NCBI RefSeq assembly: GCF_013002705.1
Contig: NZ_JABEND010000011.1
Location: 1-64,000 of the forward strand
Length of the DNA: 64,000 nucleotides
DNA from: Nakamurella aerolata
Lineage (GTDB): Bacteria > Actinomycetota > Actinomycetes > Mycobacteriales > Nakamurellaceae
Direction of reading: 5' to 3'
The notes below the pieces were generated by a model, which saw only the letters and a list, made by a program, of their open reading frames with translations, was not told the origin of the DNA and did not search any database. Within the stretch, counting starts at the first letter, position 1. Each line of letters begins with the position of its first letter. Made by a program: the position numbers and the translations under genes. Positions 5,188-11,034 of the stretch are shown here, in pieces.

Positions 5188-5597
5188 AAAGCCTTCGACT
5201 GCTGGACCTGGCGGAACAGGTACTCGACGGTGAGGTCAGTCTGGGTCCGCGCGGCCCCCGCGTTGCCGCGGTGATGACCCGTTCGGCTTTCGAAGACTGG
5301 GTGCAGTGGATGTGCGCCGGATGGATGGGCCAGGGTAGGTGGCCGACGATGCGTTCGCGCCTGATCGTGCTCCGTACCCTGCACGATCGGTCCATCGGTG
5401 CCGACGCCGAACGCCTCTGGCATGGCCTCAGCCGGGCGTGCCACGTCCACGCATACGAGCTTCAGCCGGCCGCCACCGAAGTAGTTGCCCTGCACAAGGC
5501 GACCCGCACGTTGCTGGGTCAGTCGATTGCGCGTGCCACAGCCGTGTCCGCGCCGCTTCCCGCCGCCGCGTTCATCCGGCACGACAACGCCTCATAG
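5184..5597 (+). CDS. Small HEPN-like partner of the Rad50-like ATPase
   Basis: Protein of 137 aa that begins in a 4-bp overlap with the ATPase gene, so the two are almost certainly made together. No signal peptide or membrane segment. It is predicted mainly helical and Trp-rich in the centre (EDWVQWMCAGWMGQGRW). The segment SRACHVHAYEL contains R84-x4-H89, matching the HEPN RNase motif spacing, although the residue after Arg is Ala rather than the usual polar one. I do not recognise a named family. It could be the toxin/effector or the sensor half of the pair. The frame ends just before the convergent helicase remnant. Confidence 0.75.
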   Translation: MKSLRLLDLAEQVLDGEVSLGPRGPRVAAVMTRSAFEDWVQWMCAGWMGQGRWPTMRSRLIVLRTLHDRSIGADAERLWHGLSRACHVHAYELQPAATEVVALHKATRTLLGQSIARATAVSAPLPAAAFIRHDNAS

Positions 5598-6889: not shown

Positions 6890-7825
6890 TTGCTGGCGGA
6901 CGAGTGGCTGCACGTTGCCACGCGGTCGACATGGCGGCTCCAGGTGACCGCGGGCTTCCCCGAGCGGTTGGCCGAATGGCTCGATACCTTCGATGACGCG
7001 GTGGAGTTCGCGCCGGCAACGCCGGTGCAGGTGGAACGATTCTCGTCGGGGTGGGAGCGGCCGGCGCCGGAGTCGCTCACTCAGCTGTGGTTGGAGTTCG
7101 GGTCGTGCCGCTTCGACGGCGAGGCAACACTGCTGGGCACCAGCTTCGTGCTGCACACCATCCATGGTCTGGACGACACCGAGCATGGGATCGCGGCGAC
7201 CCGGCAACGTCAGCCGGTGCTGGAGCGGGCCGGCCTGATCCCGGTGGTCGACGACGCCGGCGGGACCGAATTCGGGTGGTCGCGCCGCGACGGGTCCGTC
7301 GTCGCGGTGCGTCCCGATGGGCGGATCGAGCCACTGTTCGAATCGATCGAGCAGCTATGGGACCAAGTGAGCGTTCGGGAGTGGGATACCTCGCAGGCCG
7401 CGGTCTCTGCGGCAGCCGAACCAGACGCCGTTGATGAGCCAGAACCCTTGGGGCAAGTGACGTTTGCGGCGGTTCGGCACGAGTTCGGCCACCACCTGTG
7501 CATCATCACCGATACCGATCCCGGCGAGGTTTACCAGGGCTCGTTGGACGAGCGCGGCCTCGGTAGGACGGACTCAGCCCTGTCGCTCGCCACCGCCGAC
7601 CGAGAGGTGACGGTGACGCTGGCCACGCAGGCGCAAGCACCGGCCGAGACGCCGGGAGTGCAGCTGGTTTGGGAAGGGAAGCGCGATGCGCCGACGGGGG
7701 AGATCGGCGTCATGACCACAAACGGATTGATCTTGATGTACTGCCCGTCGCCACCGCGAGCCCGCATCCGGCTCTGGGTCAACGAGATCCCCGAGCCCGA
7801 CCGGATTCTGGTTGTTGTCGGCTGA
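6890..7825 (+). CDS. SUKH-like (SMI1/KNR4) hypothetical protein
   Basis: About 311 aa from a TTG start preceded by GAGGGCGGA. The N-terminal half contains PESLTQLWLEFGSCRFDG and later IPVVDDAGGTEFGW. That pattern is seen in SMI1/KNR4 (SUKH) domains, which often act as immunity proteins. A Glu/Pro linker near 170-185 leads to a second, mixed alpha/beta domain with no family I recognise (HLCIITDTDPGEVY). No signal peptide or TM segment. No partner toxin gene is adjacent. It is convergent with the MNIO cassette. Gene call good, family call weak. Confidence 0.65.
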   Translation: MLADEWLHVATRSTWRLQVTAGFPERLAEWLDTFDDAVEFAPATPVQVERFSSGWERPAPESLTQLWLEFGSCRFDGEATLLGTSFVLHTIHGLDDTEHGIAATRQRQPVLERAGLIPVVDDAGGTEFGWSRRDGSVVAVRPDGRIEPLFESIEQLWDQVSVREWDTSQAAVSAAAEPDAVDEPEPLGQVTFAAVRHEFGHHLCIITDTDPGEVYQGSLDERGLGRTDSALSLATADREVTVTLATQAQAPAETPGVQLVWEGKRDAPTGEIGVMTTNGLILMYCPSPPRARIRLWVNEIPEPDRILVVVG

Positions 7826-7885: not shown

Positions 7886-8176
7886 TCAGTCCCCGCCGCC
7901 TCCACCGCAGGACGATCCGCCGCCGCACGATGAACTGCTGCAGGAACTGCTGCTGCACGACGAGCCACTGCATGATGAGCTGCTGCAACCGGAGTGATGG
8001 CTGCCGTCGCTGCTGCAACTGGAGGAGCAGCTGCTCCCCACATACCCGGCACCGGCCGCGCTACCGCGGCGCATCCGCCGCCGCCTGCCGCCAGAACGGG
8101 AGCCGCGCGTCACCGAGATGATCGCGCCGATCACCCCGAGGACGGCGACGAAGATGAACAGTCCCGTTCCGCTCAT
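7886..8176 (-). CDS. Membrane-anchored Ser/Gly/Cys peptide, candidate MNIO substrate
   Basis: Protein of 96 aa. ATG 8176 was chosen because it overlaps the stop of the preceding gene (ATGA) and has AAGGGAG 6 nt upstream. Residues 5-22 form one TM helix, then a basic stretch (RRRRMRR, 31-37), then a tail made almost only of Ser, Gly and Cys. The eight Cys are at 50, 54, 64, 69, 74, 79, 84 and 90; five are in exact 5-residue register as SSSSC-type units. The C-terminus is GGGGGD. It is last in an operon with a DUF692/MNIO enzyme. MNIOs oxidise Cys in ribosomal peptides, so this is the likely precursor. It resembles the Cys/Gly-rich tails of TIGR04222 membrane proteins, also linked to DUF692 genes, but is much shorter. 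Confidence 0.85.
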   Translation of the reverse strand: MSGTGLFIFVAVLGVIGAIISVTRGSRSGGRRRRMRRGSAAGAGYVGSSCSSSCSSDGSHHSGCSSSSCSGSSCSSSSCSSSSCGGGSSCGGGGGD

Positions 8177-8634
8177 TGCCGTGCTCCCTTCGTTGTCGTT
8201 GCCGGTGGGACGAGCGCCAGGTGCCAGACGGTTCCACCGATCCCGACCGCGAGGACGCGCCGGCCGTTGACCATGGCCAGCGCGTATCGGCGGCGGCCGT
8301 CGTGAACGGCGTGCAGCCGCAACCACTGCGTCGCCGAGCGGTCGGCGTCCGCTGCCAGCCAGTCGACGAAACTGGTGAGATCAGTGTGCGCGCAATCGGT
8401 TTGCCGATGCACGGCGTATCGCCCGAACCTCTGCCGAGCGTCAGCGAGATGGACCAGCTCGGGTGCCAGCGACCGCACCGCGGCCCAGCGTTTGGCGATC
8501 AGCACCGTGGTGGTCATGGCGCTGCCGGCGGGGTCGAAGCCGGCAGGGATCCGCCCGGCAAGCAGGTCGGTGAGGACGGCATGTTCCCGATCACGCAACT
8601 GGGCGCGTTGGTCTGGCAGCTCTTGTGTCGTCAT
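8173..8634 (-). CDS. Conserved MNIO partner protein
   Basis: Protein of 153 aa coupled to both neighbours by ATGA overlaps (upstream at 8631-8634, downstream at 8173-8176). No TM or signal. The N-terminal half (LRDREHAVLTDLLAGRIPAG, FDPAG, LIAKRWAAVRSLAPEL) has the 'helical then KR...P' pattern I associate with proteins encoded beside DUF692 enzymes in actinobacteria. The C-terminal half (QWLRLHAVHDGRRRYALA) is a likely small beta domain. By position it matches the MbnC/TglI-type partner that delivers the peptide to the oxidase. That role is inference from the operon; I do not recognise a named Pfam family. Confidence 0.8.
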   Translation of the reverse strand: MTTQELPDQRAQLRDREHAVLTDLLAGRIPAGFDPAGSAMTTTVLIAKRWAAVRSLAPELVHLADARQRFGRYAVHRQTDCAHTDLTSFVDWLAADADRSATQWLRLHAVHDGRRRYALAMVNGRRVLAVGIGGTVWHLALVPPATTTKGARQ

Positions 8635-9494
8635 CGGGGCGTTCCCGCCGGCTGCTGCAGCGCCGCGATCAGCCGGGCGAACTCGCCCGCCACGGCGTCG
8701 ACGGTGACGTCGCTGTCGCGTTCCAGCAGGACGCCAGGAGGCCAGCCGCCGTACAACGCCAGTAGCTCGCCGAGCAGATCGACCGCCGGGGCAATCATGT
8801 TGTGCCCGTGGGTATCCAGATACAACCCGCTGTCGAACTCGCCCCCCGCGATGTGCACGTACGCCACCGCTGCAAGGGGAAACCGGCGCAGCTCGGCACC
8901 GGCGTCGCCACCGGACGCGGTGGCGCTGGCGAACAGGTTGGCAACGTCCAGCACCAGACGCACGCCGGTGCGCTCCACCAGCTCTGCCAAGTAGTCACCC
9001 TCGGCGAACTCGTTCTCTGGCCATTGCACCAGTGCCGCGATATTCTCGATGGCCAGCGGCACCGGCAGCTGCTCCTGCGCGCGAGTGACGTTGGCGCACA
9101 ACACATCCAAGGAGTCTCGGGTGCGTGGGGGAGGAAGCAGGTGGCCGGCCTCCAACACGTCGCCGTGTATCGGATCCGGCCCGTCGGCGGCTCGCACGAA
9201 CGCCAGGTGCTCGCTGACCAGCGGGCTCGCCAGCTCGGTGGCGAGGTCGGCCAGTCGGCGCAACCGAGTTGAATCGGGAGCATCCGCGCCACCCAACCCC
9301 AGCGTGACGCCGTGCGGCACCACCGGTACCCGGGTGGCGAGATCGAGTAGCTGCGGCGCCAGTGCGCCAGGTCGGTGGTTCTCCGCCACGATCTCGCTGA
9401 ATCCGAGCCGGCCCGCCTCGGCCTGCGCAAGCAGATACTCGGCCAGCGGCGGCCGCCAGGCGACCGCCGCCCCGCGCAGCGAGCTGTGGCTCAT
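8631..9494 (-). CDS. DUF692 multinuclear non-heme iron oxidase (MNIO)
   Basis: Protein of 287 aa, full length for the family, a TIM-barrel related to MbnB and TglH. Candidate metal-binding positions visible in order: H61 (PHGVTLGLGG), H96 (SEHLAF), E150-N151 (AIENIAALV), D183/N186 (LDVANLF), H214 (YVHIAGGE), D228 and H231 (LDTHGHNM), and Glu in LLERD. Members use two or three iron atoms and O2 to remodel cysteine in precursor peptides. It is first in a three-gene operon with overlapping stops and starts. No Shine-Dalgarno precedes the ATG, but a TACTCT box sits 7 nt upstream, so the mRNA is probably leaderless. Confidence 0.92.
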   Translation of the reverse strand: MSHSSLRGAAVAWRPPLAEYLLAQAEAGRLGFSEIVAENHRPGALAPQLLDLATRVPVVPHGVTLGLGGADAPDSTRLRRLADLATELASPLVSEHLAFVRAADGPDPIHGDVLEAGHLLPPPRTRDSLDVLCANVTRAQEQLPVPLAIENIAALVQWPENEFAEGDYLAELVERTGVRLVLDVANLFASATASGGDAGAELRRFPLAAVAYVHIAGGEFDSGLYLDTHGHNMIAPAVDLLGELLALYGGWPPGVLLERDSDVTVDAVAGEFARLIAALQQPAGTPR

Positions 9495-9575: not shown

Positions 9576-9619
9576 GCGCGGAAGATCGTGTCCCGTAGTC
9601 GGTGGTCAATCTTCCGCGC
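9576..9619. repeat. Dispersed hairpin repeat, copy A
   Basis: Arms GCGCGGAAGATCGTG and the partly matching GGTCAATCTTCCGCGC enclose a short loop (CCGTAGTCGG-like). The right arm has diverged inside. Same family as the copies near 9941, 10264, 10663, 13520 and 38977. Confidence 0.8.
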
Positions 9620-9940
9620 AGACGCCTGTTTCGCGGAAGCGCCACAGCCGCCACGACCTGGCAGCCGTTGCCGCCCACTCCGCGAGTGAAGTGCACGCTG
9701 AACTTCAGGTGCCTCACCCCGAGCACTCCGCTCGGGCTTCCGCGGAAGCACCGCGGCTGCCAGCTGGCTGCCGTTGTCGCCCACTCCGTGGGTGAAGTGC
9801 ACGCGGAACTTCATGGGCCGGGGCCGGCCGAGAGCTCCGCTGGCGCTTCCATGGAAGCGCCTTCGCGCCCACGGGGACGGCAACCGATGCGTGCGCCGTC
9901 ACCTGGGCTGCGCTATGCGGCGACAGCGCCGTGTCTCAGT

Positions 9941-9980
9941 GCGGAAGATCGTCTCCTGTAGTCGGTGGTCAATCTTCCGC
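9941..9980. repeat. Dispersed hairpin repeat, copy B
   Basis: GCGGAAGATC ... AATCTTCCGC around a central GTAGTCGGTGG. It is preceded, like copies C and D, by a shared GCGCCGTGTCT module. Confidence 0.75.
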
Positions 9981-10263
9981 CCAGACGCCGTACAGAACGG
10001 CTCGAATCTGATCCTTCTCGGCCACCCAGGTTCCGCGGAAGCGTGGCGGACGCCAGCCGTTGCCGCCCACTCCGCGGATGGAGTGCACGCGGAACTTCAT
10101 TGGGCGGGGACGGACGAGCACCCCGCCCGCGCTTCCGCGGAAGCGCCTTCCCGCTCACGGCCACCGCAGCCGATGCGTGCGCCCCGACCTCGCTGCGCTA
10201 CTCGGCGACCTGGGCTGCGCTCGGCGACCTAGCTGCGCTACGCGGCGACCGCGCCGTGTCTGA

Positions 10264-10307
10264 GCGCGGAAGATCGTGCCCGGTAGTCGGTGGCCAATCT
10301 TCCGCGC
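10264..10307. repeat. Dispersed hairpin repeat, copy C
   Basis: GCGCGGAAGATCGTGCC ... CCAATCTTCCGCGC with the same loop core (GTAGTCGGTGG) as copies A and B. Confidence 0.78.
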
Positions 10308-10662
10308 AGACGCCTAGGCTTCCGCGGAAGCGCCGCCGTACAGACCGACTCGAATCTGATCCTTCTCGACCACCCCGTGCTTCCGCGGAAGCGCCGCAGC
10401 CGCACCACCTGTCAGCCATTGGCGCCCACTCCGCAGGCGAAGCGCCAGCGGAACTTCATGTGCCTCGCCCGAGCACCCCGCCCCCGCTTCCGCGGAAGCG
10501 CTTCGCGCTCGCCTTCACGGACGAAGCGCGGTGAGGCTTTCGGCGGCCTGCGCCGGCCGGGCGCTCCGCCCGTGCTTCCGCGGAAGCGCGCCTGCACACT
10601 CGACGCCATCGCGTGGTACCTGTCCAACCGGCTGCGCTGCGAAGCGGCCGCGCCGTGTCTGA

Positions 10663-10705
10663 GCGCGGAAGATCGTGCCCCGTAGACGGTGCACGATCTT
10701 CCGCG
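10663..10705. repeat. Dispersed hairpin repeat, copy D
   Basis: GCGCGGAAGATCGTGC and GCACGATCTTCCGCG are near-perfect arms around CCCGTAGACGGT. This copy has less arm decay than copies A-C. Confidence 0.8.
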
Positions 10706-11034
10706 GGGAAGCAGGTCGGCGAGGCAGTGTGACGGTAGGTGGCCGTCTATCACCAATCTTCCGGCCGGGCGCGGATCAGCGATCCGGATCGCCAGGGACG
10801 AGGATCCGACCCGGAATCACGCGCACGCGAACCTAGCCACGTTGGGGCCGGGTGGGGGTCCTGGCACCGCGTGGTGCCGAGCGCGGACTCGCGACCACGG
10901 CATCCAGGCCGGTACCTGCTTCCGCGGAAGCGCGGCTGGTGGCAAGACACCGGGGCCACGGGCGTGCCCGGGCCGGTCCGTGCTTCCCGGGGGAGCACGA
11001 TGCTCGGTGCCGCCGGGTCAGCGGGTGGGTGGTG

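Follow-up and report, generated by a model that had tools for sequence, protein, structure and literature searches.

The TglHI and MbnBC holoenzymes, each formed by an MNIO and a partner protein, act on soluble substrates. PMC12452194 describes these substrates as lacking signal peptides; the iron ligands of TglH are H71, H107, E151, D184, N187, H216, D229, H231 and E258 (PMC10880893). The bufferins, the captophorins and the oxazolin (EGKCG) peptides likewise belong to systems of an MNIO, a partner and a Cys peptide (PMC12452194, PMC13097082). Bufferins carry Sec signal peptides, the partners of the bufferin-type systems are DUF2063 (PME-type 1) proteins (PMC12452194), and for relatives copper binding and thiooxazole groups on 5-residue Cys repeats are described, each such group costing about 4 Da per Cys and absorbing near 305 nm (PMC13097082). 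In the DAG-RiPPs, an MNIO-modified peptide ends with a membrane anchor, a lipid acquired via the lipoprotein pathway (PMC12636315). In actinobacteria, TIGR04222 membrane proteins adjoin an MNIO and have Ser/Gly-rich tails with regularly spaced Cys, which are predicted to be extracytoplasmic and are considered possible MNIO substrates; PME-type 2 partners are also described and predicted in at least 10% of the TIGR04222 clusters (PMC12452194).

The sequence-only reading of the window, which is the whole 64-kb stretch of Nakamurella aerolata DNA analysed here, had joined a DUF692 enzyme, a partner and a 96-aa peptide by two ATGA overlaps. The coordinates and the minus strand proved correct, and the translation confirmed a peptide with one hydrophobic helix, a basic stretch and a Ser/Gly tail holding eight Cys. 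The features are the following:

8631-9494, minus strand: MNIO (DUF692, PF05114) enzyme, 287 aa, assigned by Pfam match
8631-8634, minus strand: ATGA overlap of the MNIO stop and the partner start
8173-8634, minus strand: partner protein, probable PME-type 2, 153 aa, assigned by AlphaFold2 model and VIA-align
8173-8176, minus strand: ATGA overlap of the partner stop and the peptide start
7886-8176, minus strand: putative short precursor peptide, 96 aa, with one TM helix, a basic stretch and a Cys/Ser/Gly tail, assigned by homologues and family alignment
8108-8176, minus strand: hydrophobic helix of the peptide, residues 1-23, with no charge ahead of it
8063-8107, minus strand: basic juxtamembrane stretch, residues 24-38, net charge +8, which predicts the C-terminus inside
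7889-8062, minus strand: Ser/Gly/Cys tail, residues 39-96, containing DGSHHSG, found in varied forms in many family members

In the peptide, hydrophobic residues 1-23 are followed by RGSRSGGRRRRMRR and then by the Ser/Gly tail, with Cys at positions 50, 54, 64, 69, 74, 79, 84 and 90; the five at 64-84 follow one another at intervals of exactly 5 residues. Compared with Pfam, the peptide gave nothing at E≤1, and with NCBIfam one sub-threshold match (E=0.21). All six Ser codons are used, a mix that triplet slippage would not produce; together with the selection reported below, it excludes slippage or a chance ORF as the origin of the tail. The G+C content of the cassette (69.5%, versus 68.8% for the window) gave no compositional sign of transfer, and a simple promoter and terminator scan yielded nothing above chance. 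On the 5' side of the MNIO, a stretch without clear genes (9578-10932) contains eight clustered palindromes TTCCGCGGAA together with repeated GCGGAAGATCGTG motifs. A plus-strand ORF convergent with the cassette (6890-7825) showed a sub-threshold SMI1/KNR4 (SUKH) match (E=0.00059).

The MNIO matched Pfam PF05114 (MbnB_TglH_ChrH) with E=1.3e-63 and 215.2 bits (cut-off 25), and is a member of the MNIO superfamily. The alignment to 3BWW/TglH, in which the first two His ligands were placed via 3BWW and not TglH, matched all nine TglH ligands, the predicted iron ligands of the window MNIO being H61, H96, E150, D183, N186, H214, D227, H229 and E258. These nine residues were identical in 30/30 peptide-linked MNIO rows, save for a gap at E258 in one row. 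The cassette thus shares its enzyme family and iron ligands with TglHI and MbnBC, at low sequence similarity. Among the curated maturases, the two top families were those of bufferin and HvfB, and the best-scoring one was the NCBIfam bufferin maturase NF050167 (E=1.5e-46), at 158.9 bits against the cut-off of 310 that, with a DUF2063 partner, defines a bufferin (BufABC) system. A fusion of MNIO and partner was rejected as the general form, the partner motif being absent from the MNIO frame in 21 other loci (L027-L044, L046-L048). In locus L002 (192-1244), the MNIO frame extends into partner-like sequence (AAGFDPERIRVQADALAAKR), missed by the partner motif, and is possibly a natural fusion.

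The 153-aa partner matched no Pfam family at E≤1 and no NCBIfam entry, and a DUF2063 match at E≤0.1 was found in none of the 31 partners. Its AlphaFold2 model, built from 31 sequences, had a pLDDT of 88.6 and consisted of helices followed by three strands. When the model was compared with 839 chains by VIA-align, MbnC ranked first (Z 5.6, 81 aligned, rmsd 3.2) and TglI second (Z 4.4, 143 aligned, rmsd 8.6), both Z values lying below 8. Foldseek returned nothing at E≤0.001, and MNIO partners were absent among the 50 rows listed. Although each Z value is weak by itself, both top ranks fell on MNIO partners, which is unlikely to be due to chance. The fold, as predicted by the model, probably corresponds to a PME-type 2 protein, with a helical part and a short three-strand, RRE-like end.

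The first relatives came from a search with the partner in the host's order, where two Tsukamurella-like genomes proved to encode the same three genes. Patterns were then derived from the alignment of three MNIOs (that of the window and the two Tsukamurella-like ones), and the scan of genome contigs with them returned 154 stretches, 39 encoding relatives, in 38 loci; the same type of scan in viral contigs returned 50 stretches and no MNIO relative. In 33 of the 38 loci, a share that is not a prevalence because the patterns were built from three family members, the MNIO was 52-63% identical to that of the window. These 33 loci belong to Nocardioides, Williamsia, Tsukamurella, Aeromicrobium, Mycobacteroides, Flexivirga, Metallococcus and Jongsikchunia; the Mycobacteroides set includes two records titled Mycobacterium sp., one further record is titled Kitasatospora, and the set holds near copies (Williamsia muralis twice, and the nearly identical 'Kitasatospora' record). 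The cassette of this last record (L055, titled Kitasatospora arboriphila NRRL B-24581) is nearly identical to that of Williamsia muralis, and the assembly is probably mislabelled or contaminated. In the five other loci, the MNIO was at most 48% identical to that of the window. A TIGR04222-type protein is encoded closely upstream of the MNIO in L081-L084 and about 1.3 kb downstream in L085; profile tests of eight TIGR04222-type neighbours (those of L082 and L084 and six of other loci) all gave scores above the cut-off.

A mechanical search for short ORFs with a helix and a Cys/Ser/Gly tail returned the cassette peptide as sole match in the 64-kb window. Across the 38 loci (331 kb), 36 matches lay on the MNIO strand at a distance of at most 1.3 kb, and one elsewhere; three of these 37 (in L081 and L082, and the far one in L085) belong to the ends of longer TIGR04222-type proteins. 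In 27/33 loci, the MNIO thus has an intact gene for a short peptide on its strand and no more than 1.3 kb away, that is 26 by the mechanical rule (28 loci with matches minus L081 and L082) plus L058, which falls under the Ser/Gly threshold. Eight loci (L051, L053, L054, L055, L057, L059, L069 and L086) have two peptide genes. The profile of the 31-peptide alignment was weak, giving the peptide of the window itself only E=5e-5, a second match in the same genome, read as a stray, E=0.079, and strays elsewhere, and it was therefore left out of all counts. NCBIfam matches of single peptides (best E=0.00022, 'lectin'; seven families with 1-2 members each) were set aside, since they look like low-complexity chance.

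The genes occur in three orders: MNIO-partner-peptide, MNIO-peptide-partner (six Tsukamurella loci) and peptide-MNIO-partner (four Aeromicrobium and one Jongsikchunia loci), the peptide being 3' of the MNIO in 22/27 loci. The partner gene is present at the MNIO locus in 30/33 cases. In the remaining three, all from Nocardioides (L050, L052 and L058), the partner was found elsewhere in the genome with E about 1e-50, directly followed each time by a peptide gene of the same family; in N. albus, one contig carries both partner and MNIO, some 19 kb apart, and in N. luteus the distance is about 5 kb, the third genome being that of strain YR527. These partner-peptide pairs apart from the MNIO are in L124 (8036-8688 and 13765-14917), L126 and L128, and N. 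luteus has a second peptide gene beside the MNIO. In two Nocardioides genomes, the MNIO is separated from partner and peptide alike, which speaks against the cassette reading proposed below. Altogether, the peptide is intact in 29/33 genomes (27 beside the MNIO, 2 beside a partner elsewhere) and is present, intact or shortened, in 33/33, four of them with the shortened form. Conserved co-occurrence of the peptide with DUF692, on which the sequence-only reading had staked its claim, was thus borne out, the trio travelling together through about nine genera in varied gene orders. Comparison of the sequences establishes that MNIO, partner and short one-helix Cys/Ser/Gly peptide make up a conserved cassette of three genes. 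When flanking ORFs of at least 100 aa were screened, no other family occurred in more than 5 of 12 groups, antisense shadow frames aside; no third conserved neighbour, copper-related or other, that would tie the cassette to a metal was found in this screen, in which neighbours were compared without profile annotation. In fifteen Williamsia, Tsukamurella and Jongsikchunia loci (among L051-L087), the cassette occupies a shared chromosomal site. The genes ahead of the cassette at this site encode what we take to be ferredoxin-like and aminotransferase-like proteins.

The cassette resembles the TIGR04222 systems in being actinobacterial and in combining an MNIO with an adjoining membrane-anchored protein whose Ser/Gly-rich tail has regularly spaced Cys. 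It differs in that a TIGR04222 protein contains a domain of 229 residues and has several helices, whereas the cassette peptides have one helix, in the predicted side of the tail, which is the opposite one, and in its MNIOs, which form a separate clade. The domain (cut-off 43 bits) matched neither the window peptide, nor those of L058 and L064, nor any of the 31 aligned peptides, and a TIGR04222 protein above the cut-off is encoded in only 5/33 cassette genomes. From the EGKCG class, the cassette shares one Cys per 5-residue repeat, here SSSSC, and Gly following Cys (PMC13097082, PMC12452194). In contrast to the bufferin-type systems, it has no DUF2063 match and no Lys-Cys motif, and in contrast to the DAG-RiPPs its peptide is anchored by a transmembrane helix and not by a lipid. 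The peptide had been called a new type of RiPP precursor. A membrane-anchored precursor is still the best reading, but the principle is not new, Ser/Gly/Cys membrane tails being already in print as possible MNIO substrates (PMC12452194), and what is new is the short family. The precursor search described in that paper took ORFs preceding MNIO genes; its 'adjamnio-V' group of very small proteins, whose genes follow those of MNIOs, may contain some peptides of this family, and its main text does not name Tsukamurella, Williamsia, Nocardioides or Aeromicrobium (PMC12452194). No other description of a short one-helix peptide family was found in the open-licence literature on TIGR04222, PME-type 2/adjamnio and actinobacterial MNIOs.

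In two trees, the peptide-linked MNIOs formed a single group (SH-aLRT 98) that contained none of the outside rows; both trees were made by a quick method without bootstrap, the program warned of long branches, that of the window included, and most of the outside rows were judged TIGR04222-linked by eye, part of them by profile. An MNIO was found in 4 of 16 genus-mates of the host, all four outside the peptide group; for the TIGR04222 neighbours of these four MNIOs, two were seen directly and three confirmed by profile. The partner was absent at E≤0.001 from all 16 genus-mates, and the genome of the window encodes no TIGR04222 protein. This suggests that the cassette MNIO is not the usual MNIO of the genus, and the tree, with the lack of the cassette in genus-mates, indicates either acquisition of the cassette by transfer or its rare survival in this species. 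Partner matches at E≤0.001 occurred in 26/397 genomes of the host's order, only three of them, the own one included, below 1e-10. In the phylum sample, the partner profile matched 17/396 genomes (own 1e-51, the others 2e-16 or weaker), and the fetched flanks of these matches held no further short peptides with an N-terminal helix. The cassette is rare. Two genus-mates without an MNIO match encode peptides of 56-62 residues (L129, 1501-1671; L130, 1492-1680) with a helix, a basic stretch and a Gly/His/Asp tail without Cys; the profile matches are weak and their kinship to the cassette peptide is uncertain.

We propose, with a probability of roughly 0.55, that the locus is a minimal RiPP-like cassette in which tail Cys carrying thiooxazole-type groups would form a tethered metal ligand at the inner membrane face, likely for copper buffering. 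The modification and its type, the metal and the physiological role are what we infer; the partner fold and the topology are predictions. The MNIO and the partner would assemble into a holoenzyme in the cytoplasm, in the manner of MbnBC and TglHI. The peptide, seemingly without a typical Sec signal peptide or a conventional leader, would insert via its N-terminal helix as a reverse signal anchor, its N-terminus facing outwards and its basic stretch and Cys tail facing the cytoplasm, so that the tail would remain where the enzyme is. The closely spaced Cys-Gly/Ser sites would be oxidised to thiooxazole-type groups as in the bufferin and captophorin relatives, and the product would remain tethered at the inner membrane face, where it would act as a multivalent soft-metal ligand and most likely buffer copper. 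That the peptide is the substrate of the MNIO is very likely, and a thiooxazole-type product is plausible, copper buffering being the weakest step.

The topology was judged from the charges flanking the helix. Ahead of the helix, the net charge was 0 or -1 in 31/31 aligned peptides, with no positive charge and, unlike the bufferins with their Sec signal peptides, no N-terminal charge before the helix. In the 15 residues after it, the mean charge was +4.4, and the C side was more positive in 29/31 peptides, the C-flank being neutral in the other two. The positive-inside rule is an established basis for reading topology from flanking charge, and applied to these flanks it predicts an N-out/C-in orientation; an outside N-terminus with a cytoplasmic Cys tail is plausible, the side of the tail having been left open in the sequence-only reading. 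Against this, the tail might be exported, the helix serving as an uncleaved anchor or a signal peptide and the product as an extracytoplasmic metal trap like the bufferins. The Sec signal peptides of bufferins and the extracytoplasmic prediction for the similar TIGR04222 tails (PMC12452194) speak for export, as does a Lys at position 2, before the helix, in two of three Nocardioides peptides found later and not among the 31 aligned; it weakens the charge argument for those two, though in both the helix is also followed by a strongly basic stretch. The flank charges in the aligned family point the other way, and we regard export as unlikely.

Selection on the tail bears on the site of modification. 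The tail dN/dS ratio was 0-0.21 in 8 pairs of close relatives, corresponding to purifying selection; in each pair the number of Cys was equal and the tail was no less conserved than the remainder of the peptide. In the 31 peptides, 90 of 117 spacings between tail Cys were of 4-6 residues, and Gly or Ser came next after all 147 tail Cys having a following residue, a value that none of 2000 shuffles reached (mean 136.5, maximum 145). His occurred beyond residue 30 in 26/31 peptides. These constraints, and the action of the two best-scoring maturase families on Cys, argue against a second alternative, in which the peptide is the MNIO substrate but Cys is not the modified site, or not the sole one. 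Here the aromatic-Gly segment that links the basic stretch to the tail (WFFGG, YFGG, GYTGYSG, GYVGS) would be modified or serve as recognition element, the Cys tail being accessory. An aromatic residue is nevertheless present at positions 36-75 in 31/31 peptides, and some MNIOs are reported to be active on Asp, Asn or Phe (PMC12452194).

The Mycobacteroides group also favours such a non-Cys site. In four of its six loci (L071, L072, L073 and L076; around 5255-5425), the peptide stops after 56 residues with 0-1 Cys, retaining the helix, the basic part and GYSGA, the Cys tail being gone; the sequence past the stop corresponds to that past the full-length form in L075 and L078. The MNIO iron ligands are intact in these four loci, and the dN/dS values among them (four pairs compared) were 0.06-0.075 for the MNIO, 0.09-0.12 for the partner and 0.11-0.29 for the short peptide. 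The MNIO and the partner are thus under purifying selection despite the lost tail, and the Cys tail is perhaps not the sole substrate: in these genomes there would be either another substrate, or the juxtamembrane segment itself would be a target. The tail-less peptides are the main evidence against a simple account of an enzyme for the Cys tail. Weighed against the constraints on the tail, a site other than Cys as the general explanation seems to us improbable. Returning to the thiooxazole-type cassette, we tentatively extend it to a RiPP family without removable leader or export, in which the product is a one-helix protein with a cytoplasmic thiooxazole array and the tail-less 56-residue form implies a second, non-Cys juxtamembrane target; this is possible, though doubtful.

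Cys-rich peptides are able to bind metals unaided, and four genomes retain the MNIO and the partner without the Cys tail, but an unmodified membrane metallothionein-like peptide merely sharing an operon with an MNIO that acts on something else is very improbable given that the association is fixed across changing gene orders, that partner and peptide stay together even where the MNIO lies apart, and that every one of the 33 genomes encodes the peptide, intact or shortened.

Whether and how Ser/Gly/Cys membrane tails are modified is a question left open by PMC12452194, and the cassette is the smallest system that we found for it. Compared with a multi-helix TIGR04222 protein of 300 residues, a substrate of 96 residues that comes with its enzyme and partner ought to be much simpler to express and to weigh. 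A cytoplasmic tail, if true, would remove the problem of premature export raised in PMC12452194, and would place metal buffering at the inner face of the membrane and not outside.
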